From Pseudanabaena sp. FACHB-2040 (GTDB lineage: Bacteria; Cyanobacteriota; Cyanobacteriia; Phormidesmidales; Phormidesmidaceae): 64,000 bases of DNA. Where the stretch lies: NCBI RefSeq assembly GCF_014696715.1, contig NZ_JACJQO010000001.1, forward strand, positions 62,001 through 126,000, written 5' to 3'. Below the pieces are notes generated by a model. That model saw only the letters and a program-made list of their open reading frames with translations, was not told where the DNA came from and did no database searches. Made by a program: the position numbers and the translations under genes. Shown here piece after piece: positions 14,986 to 22,767 of this stretch. Within the stretch, counting starts at the first letter, position 1, and every line of letters starts with the position of its first letter.

Positions 14986-17550
14986 ATGACGGCCCAAATC
15001 AGCTCTCAAAAAACCGCTCTCAACCTGCGTCTGGTCGCGCCGCTCTCTGGTCAACTGGTGCCGCTGGAGCAAGTGCCCGACCCCGTCTTTGCCCAAAAGA
15101 TGGTGGGCGACGGCATCTCCATTGACCCCCTCAGCCAAACGCTGCTGGCCCCCTATGCTGGAGAGATCATTCAGCTCCATCCCTCGCACCACGCCATTAC
15201 CCTCAAGACGGCAGAAGGGATAGAAATCTTGATGCACATTGGCCTAGAAACCGTGGAGCTGCGCGGCCAGGGATTTACGCCCAAGGTCAAGCTAGGCGAT
15301 CGGGTGCAGATGGGCGATGTGCTGATTGAGTTTGATGCCGACTACATTGCGCTCCACGCCAAGAGCCTGCTGACTCAAGTAGTGGTGACCAATAGCGATC
15401 GCATTGCCAGCTTTGCCTACCAGTCGGGCGGCGTTCACGCTGGCAGCGACATTTTTCTGGAGCTAACCCTGGGTAGTGAGGGCGCAGCTGTTCCTGAAGC
15501 AGGCTTTGGCGAACAGGTGACCTCTGAGCCGATCACCGTACCCAATCCCTCTGGGCTGCACGCCCGTCCGGCAGCGGTGCTGGTCAATATGGCCAAGCAA
15601 TATCAGTCAAAGATCTGGCTGCAGCGGGGCGAAAACCGGGCTAATGCCAAGAGCGTAGTCGCCCTGATGGGCCTGCAGGTGGGCAATGGCGACACCGTCA
15701 CTCTAGCCGCAGTTGGCCCTGATGCTCAGGCAGCTATTTCAGAGTTGACAGAGGCCGTTCGCTCTGGCTTGGGCGAGGAAGGGTCGGTTGCCGTTTCGGC
15801 CCCGGCCAGCATGGCCCAGTCTGACCTCAAAGCACCCGCCCCTCAGCCCCGATCCGAAGACCCGAACCTGATTTTGGGCAATGCCGCCTCTACGGGTCTA
15901 GCGGTAGGCAACACGGTGCGGCTGCGGCAGCAGCAGATTCAGGTAGCCGAAACAGGGGGTACACCGGAGCAGGAGCGAAGGAGGCTGGAGGATGCGATCG
16001 CAAAAGCCGCCCTCGAAATCGAATCCATTCGTGCCAACGTCCACTCTCAGGGCGACCCCAGCAAAGCCGCCATCTTCGCCGCCCACCAGGAGATTCTAGA
16101 CGACCCCGAAATTTTAGACACAGCCACTCGCTGCATTCACAAGGGCAAGAGTGCCGCCTTTGCCTGGCAGCAGACCTACACCGCCCAAGCCGATCAGCTA
16201 GCGCAGCTAGGCAATGAACTGCTGGCCCAGCGGGCTAACGACGTGCGCGACGTAGGCCAGCGGGTGCTACGAATTCTCACTGGGGTAGAAACCACCCACC
16301 TCAAGTACCCCCACGACACCATTCTGCTAGCCGAAGACTTGACCCCCTCCGACATGGCCAGCCTGGATCGAGAGCGCGTAGTCGGCTTCTGCACCCTGAC
16401 CGGCGGAGCGACCTCCCACGTAGCAATTTTGGCGCGGTCGATGGGCATCCCTGCGATCGCAGGGGCCGAGGCCCGTGTCCTCGACCTGCCCGATGGCACC
16501 CCCGTCATTCTCGACGGCACCCAGGGTACCCTGCGGCTGAATGCCCAAGCAGAAGAAATCGAGCGCATCCGAGGCCGCATTGCCCGCCAAAAAGCTCTGC
16601 GCGAAGCCGATCTGCAGACCGCCTTCGAACCCGCCATTACCCAAGATGGCCACCAAATTGAAGTCGCCGCCAATATCGGCAGCCTCAAAGACGCAGAAGA
16701 AAGCGTGGCCCTAGGAGCCGAAGGCGTTGGCCTGCTGCGCACCGAGTTTGTTTTCCTCGATCGGCCCAAAGCCCCTAGCGAAGACGAGCAAACCGGCATC
16801 TACCGCAGCATGCTAGAGGTACTCGGCCCCGACCGCCCCATGATCCTCCGCACGCTGGATGTGGGCGGTGACAAGCCTCTGCCTTACCTAGCCATGCCCC
16901 ACGAAGAAAACCCCTTCCTCGGCGAGCGCGGCATTCGCCTCGGCTTTGACCAGCCAGAACTCCAGCGCACCCAGTTCCGCGCCGCCCTGAGAGCCGCCAG
17001 TGCCGGACACCTACGGATCATGTTCCCCATGATTGGCCGCCTCGAAGAGATCCGAATGGCTAAGGCCATGCTGGAAGAAGAACGCCAGCGGCTAGGCGTG
17101 CCCCCGATCGAAATCGGCATCATGATCGAAGTGCCCTCCGCAGCCGTTATGGCCGAACAGCTAGCCCAGGAAGTCGATTTCTTCTCCATCGGCACCAACG
17201 ACCTAACCCAATACACCCTGGCGATGGATCGAGGCCACCCCAAACTAGCGCCCCAAATCGACGGTCTCCACCCCGCCGTCCTGCGTCTGATCGACTACAC
17301 CGTCAAAGGCGCTGACCGCCACGGCAAATGGGTCGGCATCTGCGGCGGCCTCGGCAGCGACCCCCAAGCCATTCCCCTCCTAATCGGCCTCGGCATCAAA
17401 GAACTCAGCGTCAGCGTCGCCAGCATTCCCGGCATCAAGTCGCAGATTCGTCGCCTGAGTCTCGCCCACTGCCGTGATCTAGCTGCCAGAGCGCTGGATA
17501 TGGGCACAGCGGCAGAAGTGCGATCGCTAGTGCCTTGGGCGGAGGGTTAG
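14986..17550 (+). CDS. nagF: PTS multiphosphoryl transfer protein, EIIA(Glc)-HPr-EI fusion
   Basis: An 854-aa fusion of the general and sugar-specific soluble phosphotransferase domains. EIIA(Glc/crr-type) spans about 15-160, with active His84 in LMHIGLETVEL and partner His69. HPr spans 175-265, with His192 in PSGLHARPAAVL. Enzyme I spans 290-854, with His478 in GGATSHVAILA, the PEP-binding blocks LRTEFVFLDRP, TLDVGGDKPLPYL and ENPFLGERGIRL, and catalytic Cys786 in GICGGLGSDP. It would move phosphate from PEP through EI, HPr and EIIA to the EIIB of the neighbouring transporter. The same domain order is known for proteobacterial NagF. All catalytic residues are intact. It contains HIP1 octamers, so if it was transferred it is well ameliorated. 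Confidence 0.95.
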   Translation: MTAQISSQKTALNLRLVAPLSGQLVPLEQVPDPVFAQKMVGDGISIDPLSQTLLAPYAGEIIQLHPSHHAITLKTAEGIEILMHIGLETVELRGQGFTPKVKLGDRVQMGDVLIEFDADYIALHAKSLLTQVVVTNSDRIASFAYQSGGVHAGSDIFLELTLGSEGAAVPEAGFGEQVTSEPITVPNPSGLHARPAAVLVNMAKQYQSKIWLQRGENRANAKSVVALMGLQVGNGDTVTLAAVGPDAQAAISELTEAVRSGLGEEGSVAVSAPASMAQSDLKAPAPQPRSEDPNLILGNAASTGLAVGNTVRLRQQQIQVAETGGTPEQERRRLEDAIAKAALEIESIRANVHSQGDPSKAAIFAAHQEILDDPEILDTATRCIHKGKSAAFAWQQTYTAQADQLAQLGNELLAQRANDVRDVGQRVLRILTGVETTHLKYPHDTILLAEDLTPSDMASLDRERVVGFCTLTGGATSHVAILARSMGIPAIAGAEARVLDLPDGTPVILDGTQGTLRLNAQAEEIERIRGRIARQKALREADLQTAFEPAITQDGHQIEVAANIGSLKDAEESVALGAEGVGLLRTEFVFLDRPKAPSEDEQTGIYRSMLEVLGPDRPMILRTLDVGGDKPLPYLAMPHEENPFLGERGIRLGFDQPELQRTQFRAALRAASAGHLRIMFPMIGRLEEIRMAKAMLEEERQRLGVPPIEIGIMIEVPSAAVMAEQLAQEVDFFSIGTNDLTQYTLAMDRGHPKLAPQIDGLHPAVLRLIDYTVKGADRHGKWVGICGGLGSDPQAIPLLIGLGIKELSVSVASIPGIKSQIRRLSLAHCRDLAARALDMGTAAEVRSLVPWAEG

Positions 17551-17778
17551 ATAGGGAAGACGCGGGGACACGGGGACGCGGGGACGCGGAGAACAGAAGG
17601 TAAGCATTAAACATATCTTCTGGTATTAGGCTCCGCCTAGGAACGAGAGTGTCGCCCCGCGTCCCCGCGTCTCCCCCTCTCCGCGTCATCTTCCTCTTCC
17701 CCACCTCCCCAATCCTCCCCACCTCCCCAATCCTTCCCTTCCCCACCTCTCTTCACCCTTTCATCCCTTCAGCGAATC
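17551..17778. repeat. GC-rich tandem repeats with an inverted copy, plus an 18-bp tandem
   Basis: Between the two PTS genes lies a tract of GGGGACGCG-type units (about 17559-17593). An inverted C-rich counterpart follows (about 17653-17690), so the transcript could fold back. A perfect 18-base unit is then repeated twice head to tail (17699-17716 and 17717-17734). The middle contains AGGCTCCGCCTAGGAACGAG, a motif type commonly dispersed in cyanobacterial spacers. No T-run terminator is seen. Confidence 0.6.
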
Positions 17779-21515: not shown

Positions 21516-21579
21516 GCCGCCATTTATGAGCGACTTACATCCTCTGACTAGACTTTCATTAGCCAATTCCCATAACCCT

Positions 21580-22767
21580 ATGTACGCGCTCACCCACTGT
21601 CTGCTCTACACGGGCAACCGTGAACTGAAAGGTCATGCCCTGATTGTGGAGGGAAGCAAAATCCTTGATATTGTGCCCGAGGAACGTTTGGGTCAAGACT
21701 TTCAAACGTTGGACTGCCAGGGCTATGGGGTTGCTCCTGGCTTTATTGACCTGCAGCTCAATGGCTGCGGCGGCGTTATGTTTAATGATGCCATTGCGGC
21801 AGAAACCCTGGATGTGATGCACCGCACCAACCTCAAGAGCGGCACCACCAGCTTTTTGCCAACGCTGATCACCACCTCAGATGAGGCGATGCAAACCGCT
21901 ATTGAGGTGGTGCAAACCTACCGTCAGAGCCACGCCGACAGCGTTTTAGGCCTGCATCTAGAGGGACCCTATCTCAACCCCAAGCGCAAGGGCATTCACG
22001 ATGGTCGCTATGTGAGGCAGCCTGAGGCTGAAATGGTGAGTGCGATCGCAAAAGCTGGCCCCGACGTTGTCAAGCTCGTCACCCTGGCCCCTGAGCAAAC
22101 GCCCTTAGAGCAGATTCGTCAGCTCACAGCAGCGGGTATTTTGGTATCTGCAGGCCATACCGATGCCACCTTCGAAGAAGCGATGGCGGGCTTTGATGCC
22201 GGTGTTCAAATGGTGACCCACCTGTTTAACGCCATGTCGCCCTGGCAGGGCCGCGAACCTGGCATGGTTGGGGCCACCTTTAGCCGGGGCAACGTCTATG
22301 CCGGTATCATTGTCGACGGGCACCACGTCCACTTTGCCTCGGTGCGCCTGGCTCAAAAAATCTTGCGAGACAAGCTGGTTTTGGTGACCGACGCCACGCC
22401 CCCTGTCGGCACACAAATGGAGTCTTTCACTATCGGCGGGCAAGAGGTATTTTACCAAAACGGCAAATGCGTCTCGGCCGAAGGCACCCTAGGCGGCTCA
22501 GCCCTAACGATGATCGAAGCGGTAGCTAACTGTGTTCGCCATGTCGGCATTTCTTTGGGAGAAGCCCTGCGCATGGCCACTCTCAACCCTGCCCGCGCCA
22601 TCGGCTGTGACGATCGGCTGGGTCTACTAGCCCCCAGCTACCGGGCCAACTTAGTCCTGTTCAACACTGAGTTTGCTGTCATGGGAGTGATGGATCAGGG
22701 CCACCTTCATGCCTTTTCCCCCCATTTAGCTGCTGCTGGTAAAGCAATGCCCGTAAATACGCTGTAG
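21580..22767 (+). CDS. nagA: N-acetylglucosamine-6-phosphate deacetylase
   Basis: Removes the acetyl group from GlcNAc-6-P to give glucosamine-6-P for NagB. About 395 aa from ATG 21580. I chose this start because alignment to E. coli NagA begins exactly there (MYALTHCLLYTGNREL). In-frame alternatives are ATG 21526 and TTG 21508; the latter would overlap nagB by 8 bases. Conserved amidohydrolase blocks: FIDLQLNGCGG, LHLEGPYLN (metal Glu), VSAGHTDAT, THLFNAMSP, GIIVDGHHV, VLVTDATPPVG (catalytic Asp) and GTLGGSALTMIEAV. With the PTS genes and nagB it completes a GlcNAc uptake and catabolism route. Confidence 0.96.
   Translation: MYALTHCLLYTGNRELKGHALIVEGSKILDIVPEERLGQDFQTLDCQGYGVAPGFIDLQLNGCGGVMFNDAIAAETLDVMHRTNLKSGTTSFLPTLITTSDEAMQTAIEVVQTYRQSHADSVLGLHLEGPYLNPKRKGIHDGRYVRQPEAEMVSAIAKAGPDVVKLVTLAPEQTPLEQIRQLTAAGILVSAGHTDATFEEAMAGFDAGVQMVTHLFNAMSPWQGREPGMVGATFSRGNVYAGIIVDGHHVHFASVRLAQKILRDKLVLVTDATPPVGTQMESFTIGGQEVFYQNGKCVSAEGTLGGSALTMIEAVANCVRHVGISLGEALRMATLNPARAIGCDDRLGLLAPSYRANLVLFNTEFAVMGVMDQGHLHAFSPHLAAAGKAMPVNTL

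Follow-up and report, generated by a model that had tools for sequence, protein, structure and literature searches.

A putative glucose-type phosphotransferase system beside NagB and NagA genes in a cyanobacterium, probably part of an old two-gene cassette

The 64,000-nucleotide stretch of Pseudanabaena sp. FACHB-2040 DNA analyzed here (hereafter, the window) encodes a complete sugar phosphotransferase system (PTS) at 14986–22767, with EI, HPr, and EIIA in one fused protein, an EIICB permease, and the enzymes NagB and NagA. Open reading frames, Pfam matches, and family profiles agree on this content, as the earlier note on this DNA had proposed. With a probability of roughly 0.7, the whole arrangement would be explained by a self-contained glucose PTS together with an old two-gene cassette. 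These two PTS genes probably entered the cyanobacteria in a single event that predates the divergence of several families, and have since been passed on by descent, being lost many times and transferred in some cases. We infer activity, substrate, expression, the single gain, and the inheritance of the cassette from the comparisons described below. The system would add one more example to a type already described, which seems to have been under-reported among cyanobacteria.

The first gene (14986..17550; like all features given here, on the + strand) encodes an 854-residue fusion of Glc-type EIIA, HPr, and EI, identified by its ORF and by Pfam and family profile matches. The EIIA domain (15028–15402; Pfam EIIA_1, residues 15–139) carries His84, the HPr domain (15526–15762; Pfam, residues 181–259) carries His192, and the EI part (15877–17457; Pfam N-terminal, mobile, and PEP-binding domains, residues 298–824) carries His478 and Cys786 and scores 557 bits against TIGR01417 (cut-off 342). 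All four catalytic residues are invariant in the 105 EIIA-HPr-EI rows, 35 of them cyanobacterial and 70 from elsewhere. The second gene (17779..19626) encodes a 615-residue EIICB permease of the PtsG (glucose) type, in which Pfam recognizes PTS_EIIC (IIC domain, 17824–18798, residues 16–340) and two EIIB stretches; the first EIIB domain (about 19051–19281) contains Cys447, and the equivalent Cys is present in 40/40 cyanobacterial PtsG-type permeases. The five catalytic residues listed in the earlier note are all present.

Further downstream lie NagB (glucosamine-6-phosphate deaminase; 20724..21515; TIGR00502, 397 bits, cut-off 237) and NagA (N-acetylglucosamine-6-phosphate deacetylase; 21508..22767; NF008371, 519 bits, cut-off 483; also above the cut-off of TIGR00221). 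The true start of NagA is probably near 21580, some 24 to 28 codons past 21508, because the family match starts at residue 25 and the ORF in a genome of the same genus has 391 residues. The description of the locus as one same-strand block holds for the strand; a fifth gene, however, had been overlooked, at 19864..20559. It encodes an SH3-like protein (SH3_3, 25.3 bits, under the cut-off of 27) whose part in the PTS is uncertain. By eye, its N terminus looks like a signal sequence. Since the genes are separated by gaps of 228 bp (EI–permease), 237 bp (permease–SH3), and 164 bp (SH3–NagB), and only NagB and NagA overlap, the block need not be one operon. Scans of 14.3–24.0 kb gave one promoter site (4.7 expected) and 13 terminators (10.3 expected), counts near or below expectation that say nothing on operon structure, and an Rfam search of 9.5–25.5 kb gave no matches.

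In the proposed mechanism, PEP would phosphorylate the EI part of the fused soluble protein at His478, and the phosphate would pass to His192 of HPr, to His84 of EIIA, and from there to Cys447, in the EIIB domain of the permease. This membrane protein would move glucose through IIC and release glucose-6-phosphate. NagA and NagB would convert GlcNAc-6-phosphate and GlcN-6-phosphate to fructose-6-phosphate. In this genus their genes adjoin the PTS, and the enzymes may handle glucosamine that the permease admits as a secondary substrate, or amino sugar salvaged from the cell wall.

Profile models and residues both place the window permease in the glucose class. It scores 673 bits with the PtsG model TIGR02002 (cut-off 592) and 663 bits with a second PtsG model, NF008301 (cut-off 647), whereas with the NagE model TIGR01998 it reaches 502 bits, short of the cut-off of 553 that three other cyanobacterial permeases do reach. 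The 11 glucose-contact residues of E. coli IIC-Glc that are named in part of PMC11393339 are all identical in the window permease and in 40/40 cyanobacterial PtsG-type permeases. Two of these contacts, positions 202 and 257 (E. coli PtsG numbering), are Glu and Lys in the window permease and Asn and Met in E. coli NagE and in 3/3 cyanobacterial NagE-type permeases. Lys257 is not universal among glucose permeases, as a Bacillus PtsG has Met at this position, so that the discrimination rests mainly on position 202. Asn and Met are also found in two Anaerolineae permeases (L086 and L088), the loci of which are the only 2 of 70 non-cyanobacterial ones (among the best 80 of 555 relatives) with NagA near the permease. 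These two are closely related and count as one event. Glucose thus appears to be the likeliest substrate, which narrows the earlier suggestion of an amino sugar or glucose. The window genome has only two EIICs, this permease and a FruA-like one, and its second PTS is of the fructose type; it also encodes a glucokinase, so another route for glucose is possible.

The proximity of NagB and NagA raises the alternative that the permease imports GlcNAc or glucosamine and that the two enzymes complete one functional unit. Both genes follow the PTS genes on the same strand, here as in a same-genus genome, and they occur in the same order in G162 and G183. Moreover, E. coli-type NagA, defined by our own cut of TIGR00221 E < 1e-100, accompanies PTS_EIIC, being found in 50/76 genomes with this domain versus 13/312 without it; these are raw genome counts, and Fisher tests were left unused since they ignore relatedness. 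A PtsG-type permease lies near NagB–NagA in the window, G001, G162, G180, G209, and G183, which leaves room for an amino-sugar role. Such a role is nevertheless unlikely in our view: besides the glucose-type residues and model scores, of 46 genomes that have a Glc/Nag-type EIIC, 11 are without an E. coli-type NagA, searches of the window genome for GH18 and GH20 gave no match, and a distinct NagE-type permease, missing from this genome, stands beside NagB–NagA in other cyanobacteria (L061, L065, and L067). Only 4/40 fetched loci combine NagB–NagA and a PtsG-type permease.

Compatible with a glucose PTS, and with odds that we consider not far from even, is that NagB–NagA form an independent unit, for example for recycling of cell-wall amino sugars, that adjoins the PTS by chance in this genus. 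The 237- and 164-bp gaps and the unrelated SH3-like gene intervene between the two parts, 13 genomes have E. coli-type NagA without any PTS_EIIC, and 20/20 other NagA loci of the window's family (f1) show neither NagB nor a PTS gene on the stretch fetched, some of these stretches stopping at contig ends. Yet the proximity to the PTS is kept within the genus and recurs in three genomes of family f24 and one of f15.

That the locus belongs to a genuine cyanobacterial genome, as the earlier note had argued, is borne out by an independent same-genus assembly (L037), where the junction from NagA to the VTT and MgtC genes recurs and where the SH3-like gene (69% identity) also lies between permease and NagB. 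The HIP1 octamers cited in that note were likewise recovered, with 46 sites throughout the window versus 1.1 expected, seven of them inside the block. An assembly chimera or contamination could be suspected at the left junction near 14.4 kb, which the same-genus genome does not share: its best counterpart of the window histidine kinase (78% over 942 residues) precedes another ORF. Given the 396-kb contig, the 99.95% complete genome, the repeated right junction, the HIP1 sites, and the cyanobacterial grouping of the fusion in the EI tree, we regard this explanation as scarcely credible.

The statement that cyanobacteria have no PTS is indeed in print, in part of a 2008 survey (PMC2405797), and the earlier note had repeated it. 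The rarity that it implies is not supported: in surveys that scored few candidates per genome, PTS_EIIC was above the cut-off in 76/388 genomes of the class and in 20/59 of a set of relatives, own genome counted, and a passage in a 2010 paper (PMC2900214) had reported a PTS in Nostoc azollae. A Glc/Nag-type EIIC was present in 46/388 sampled genomes. Fusion and PtsG-type permease share a locus in 37/40 fetched loci and are directly adjacent in 35. Among the best 80 of 555 relatives from a scan of genome contigs, the cassette was found in Leptolyngbya sp. Heron Island J, Stenomitos frigidus ULC18, and Chroococcus sp. FPU101, and the gene pair in many phyla, which implies that transfer between phyla happened. 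The 76 genomes with a PTS permease domain change the choice of strains to try for sugar-fed growth, and PEP-linked sugar import and PTS signaling in a phototroph become directly testable.

In the EI tree, 35 cyanobacterial fusions fall on one side of a branch with an SH-aLRT of 100, and the permease tree groups 36 cyanobacterial PtsG-type rows (SH-aLRT 100), including 14/14 f1 rows together (SH-aLRT 97). Both trees came from quick searches without bootstrap, and some of their branches were marked as long (L150 with L156; L123 and E. coli NagE). For the EI tree, 8 identical rows (113 to 105) and then 14 near-duplicates (105 to 91) were removed and fusions below 780 residues left out; for the permease tree, 8 identical rows were removed, followed by every row from five f1 loci that were near-identical, and 34/66 non-cyanobacterial permeases were left out. 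Both trees place f15 rows in the midst of f24 rows, and the EI tree sets a single f15 row (L064) next to rows of f1, so that a degree of transfer within the phylum is likely. In the NagB tree, which has only four outgroup rows, the window nests in the cyanobacterial group; the NagA tree, with a scattered outgroup and branches up to 10 long, is unreliable, and nothing was drawn from it. The EI tree points to no single donor of the cyanobacterial cassette.

These groupings bear on the idea, put forward in the earlier note, that the whole block was gained recently from an enterobacterium-like donor and then ameliorated. The gene pair in many phyla and a NagB 62% identical to that of E. coli are in line with such a gain; NagA, however, is only 49% identical, identities to E. 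coli proteins span just 49–62%, and the window's EI, permease, and NagB nest in cyanobacterial groups. E. coli is not known to encode an EIIA-HPr-EI fusion next to PtsG. A recent gain is therefore very improbable. The note had named wide occurrence with vertical inheritance as the opposite outcome; the EI and permease trees largely point to this for the two PTS genes, whereas the fetched loci do not do so for the whole four-gene block.

The permease ends in a second EIIB-fold domain (EIIB′; 19342..19623) that, in the permease alignment, is devoid of the catalytic Cys. Its structure model has a pLDDT of 91.7 and best matches E. coli EIIB-Glc in the PDB (3bp3, 1o2f, and 3bp8). A second EIIB motif is found in 53/66 scored non-cyanobacterial permeases (among the best 80 of 555 relatives), and part of the other phyla keep Cys at the EIIB′ site in the alignment. 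An invariant Cys-to-Ala change, suggested by a regular-expression count, was dropped, since the alignment shows a one-residue insertion instead. Speculatively, and with considerable doubt on our part, an overlooked, anciently gained glucose PTS may operate in perhaps one in ten cyanobacterial species (a fraction taken from the 46/388 above, in a sample that is not unbiased) and there link the import of sugar to the PEP pool. The conserved Cys-less EIIB′ would then pass no phosphate and would bind either the fusion protein or a regulator, much like the docking of Mlc by EIIB-Glc in E. coli. If true, this docking would provide cyanobacteria with a PTS-based sugar sensor.

In E. coli, EI, HPr, and EIIA are separate proteins, unlike the window fusion. 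E. coli PtsG (IICB-Glc, PDB 8qsr) resembles the window permease in its IIC–IIB order, in 57.5% identity over 475 columns, in the glucose contacts, and in the EIIB Cys, but lacks the extra EIIB′. Pairs of fusion and IICB in Caballeronia, Chitinibacter, Competibacteraceae, Anaerolineae, and others (among the best 80 of 555 relatives) have fusions 49–62% identical to that of the window and, as in the window, a permease match following the fusion in 70/70 loci; these fusions fall outside the cyanobacterial group in the EI tree, and in four actinomycete loci the permease is of another type (35–40% identity). By description, the PTS of Nostoc azollae 0708 is also cyanobacterial and, in a passage of PMC2900214, is thought to import plant sugar; part of a later review (PMC10095879) ties it to a fructose-specific IIC. 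Similar in layout, again going by description, is nagFEC of Ralstonia eutropha H16, where, as stated in part of PMC3222305, EI, HPr, and EIIA form a single gene product adjoining an EIIBC gene; NagF/NagE is assigned there to GlcNAc, whereas the window permease is glucose-type by its residues and models.

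The open reading frames, domains, and active residues listed in the earlier note proved real upon an ORF check and domain profile searches. The block lies on the plus strand and starts with a single 854-aa protein that joins EIIA (glucose class), HPr, and EI from N- to C-terminus (14986–17550; the "fusion"), followed by an EIICB permease (17779–19626), a secreted-looking protein with a subthreshold SH3 match (19864–20559, between the permease and NagB), NagB (20724–21515), and NagA (21508–22767). The intergenic gaps are 228 bp between EI and the permease, 237 bp between the permease and the SH3-like ORF, and 164 bp between the latter and NagB; only the NagB and NagA ORFs overlap. 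A 1430-aa multi-PAS histidine kinase with a receiver domain lies 5′ of the block on the same strand (10077–14369); at the same-genus gene most similar to it, the downstream ORF differs. We conclude that this PTS is real and intact, being ordinary in kind and notable in distribution. The earlier note considered an amino-sugar or glucose PTS surprising in a cyanobacterium and suggested gain by transfer; our best reading of the sequence data is that the system would be an inherited two-gene glucose PTS (fusion gene and permease gene, the "cassette") with adjoining genes for amino-sugar catabolism.

Cyanobacteria were said to be without PTS in PMC2405797 (2008). PMC2900214 (2010) describes in Nostoc azollae a PTS that is "lacking in most cyanobacterial genomes"; PMC6979478 and PMC10095879 mention the Nostoc azollae system again. 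In a term search of a 2023 review (PMC10515406), PTS appears solely within a reference title, and PTS terms were unmatched in PMC8225149, PMC12967839, and PMC8261047. Among the titles listed, no survey of PTS across cyanobacteria was found in the open-access literature, which does not show that none exists.

The EIIC profile PF02378 exceeded its cut-off in 76 of 388 genomes of the class (79 at E ≤ 0.001), which is no unbiased rate because the 388 are a sample of a larger group and include 60 genomes from the window's family, and in 20 of 59 genomes of a relatives set that includes the window's own genome and 23 genomes akin at class level only. Sorting the 76 genomes by E-value alone (Glc/Nag type, E < 1e-50; FruA-like, weaker match) gave 46 with the Glc/Nag type, 45 with the FruA-like type, 22 with both, and 7 with other or partial matches. 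The fusion gene, either complete or truncated at a contig end, shares the locus with a PtsG-type permease in 37 of 40 fetched Glc/Nag-type loci and directly adjoins it in 35 of these; in L061 and L071, the two are separated by NagB and NagA, and in L061 also by a NagE-type permease. The exceptions among the 40 are two NagE-type loci (L065 and L067) and one at a contig end (L072). In L055, L056, and L059, the fusion is broken into several ORFs, reflecting frameshift or assembly error.

In a tree of the EI fusion (91 rows, quick search without bootstrap), all 35 cyanobacterial rows fall on one side of a branch with an SH-aLRT of 100. The permease tree (72 rows) likewise places its 36 PtsG-type rows from cyanobacteria on one side of a branch (SH-aLRT 100), and there the 14 rows from family f1, that of the window, cluster as a single set (97) as opposed to families f24, f15, and f34 and Chroococcus. 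Simple inheritance is counted against by the f15 row L064, placed beside f1 rows in the EI tree, and by the f15 rows interspersed among f24 rows in both trees. For NagB, 16 cyanobacterial rows grouped together (99/96) versus just four outgroup rows.

A scan of named genomes, from which the best 80 of 555 relatives were taken, yielded 10 cyanobacterial and 70 other loci, the latter from Chloroflexota, Methylomirabilota, Pseudomonadota, Thermodesulfobacteriota, Campylobacterota, Acidobacteriota, Actinomycetota, Planctomycetota, Lentisphaerota, Elusimicrobiota, and Bdellovibrionota. Within these best 80, a permease match adjoins the fusion in every locus, and four actinomycete loci (L123, L129, L134, and L142) carry another permease type, 35 to 40% identical.

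Judged by profile scores, the window permease passed both PtsG models and failed the NagE model. Glucose contacts in E. coli IICB-Glc, known from structure or simulation, are listed in a section of PMC11393339 as E202, R203, H211, H212, N215, K257, G295, T297, E298, F337, and S338; all 11 are identical in the alignment of 40 cyanobacterial PtsG-type permeases (40/40). Asn202 and Met257 (E. coli PtsG numbering) occur in E. coli NagE and in all three cyanobacterial NagE-type permeases. Among the 66 noncyanobacterial permeases in the best 80 of 555, positions 202/257 are Glu/Lys in 60, Asn/Met in two, and Tyr/Ala in four (actinomycete). Both Asn/Met permeases are from Anaerolineae (L086 and L088), and these are the only 2 of the 70 noncyanobacterial loci in the best 80 of 555 where NagA was found, many loci stopping early at contig ends. 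Since a Bacillus PtsG also has Met at 257, these two residues should not be over-read. We read the window permease as a probable glucose transporter for which glucosamine may be a side substrate, as is known for other PtsG proteins. In some other cyanobacteria, a second permease, of NagE type, adjoins NagB–NagA (L061, 3422–5197; L065, 6999–8768; L067, 8766–10226).

E. coli-type NagA (TIGR00221, E < 1e-100, a cut set by us) occurs in 63 of 388 genomes, 50 with PTS_EIIC and 13 without. NagB–NagA and a PtsG-type permease share one locus in 4 of the 40 loci (L037, from the same genus, L054, L061, and L071) and in L165, from the NagA-centered loci; in 20 of 20 other f1 loci fetched around NagA, the stretch gave no match to a NagB-like gene or to any PTS gene. 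GH18 and GH20 had zero matches across the window's own genome, and hence these two families give no sign of chitin use.

The window's own genome (6.28 Mb, 99.95% complete) encodes a glucokinase and, on contig C6, one further EI and one further EIIC. This fructose-type PTS (217–222 kb; loci L001 and L006) comprises a fusion (778-aa ORF; EIIA_2, HPr, and EI), a PfkB-family kinase (333-aa ORF), from its place presumably a 1-phosphofructokinase, and a FruA-like permease of 616 aa that carries EIIC plus two PTS_IIB stretches and matches the fructose EIIB'BC model. The window PTS is thus not the sole PTS of this genome.

The window permease ends in an extra 94-residue domain (alignment A3, 30 rows: 11 cyanobacterial and 19 other), which alignment, model, and structure match identify as a second EIIB-fold domain lacking the catalytic Cys (19342–19623, plus strand). 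The predicted model has a pLDDT of 91.7, and its best structural match is E. coli EIIB-Glc, including the Mlc/EIIB complex 3bp8. Relative to the D-A-C-I-T-R loop of EIIB, the second domain has one extra residue. The domain is spread through cassette permeases of several phyla: its motif occurs in all but one of the 40 PtsG-type permeases from cyanobacteria (39; the exception is cut by a contig end) and in 53 of 66 noncyanobacterial permeases among the best 80 of 555, with a loop Cys in 0/39 and, within the same best 80, 12/53, respectively. One guess is that the domain serves in docking or regulation. A duplicated B' domain is known in fructose permeases (the EIIB'BC model), so a spare EIIB has precedent.
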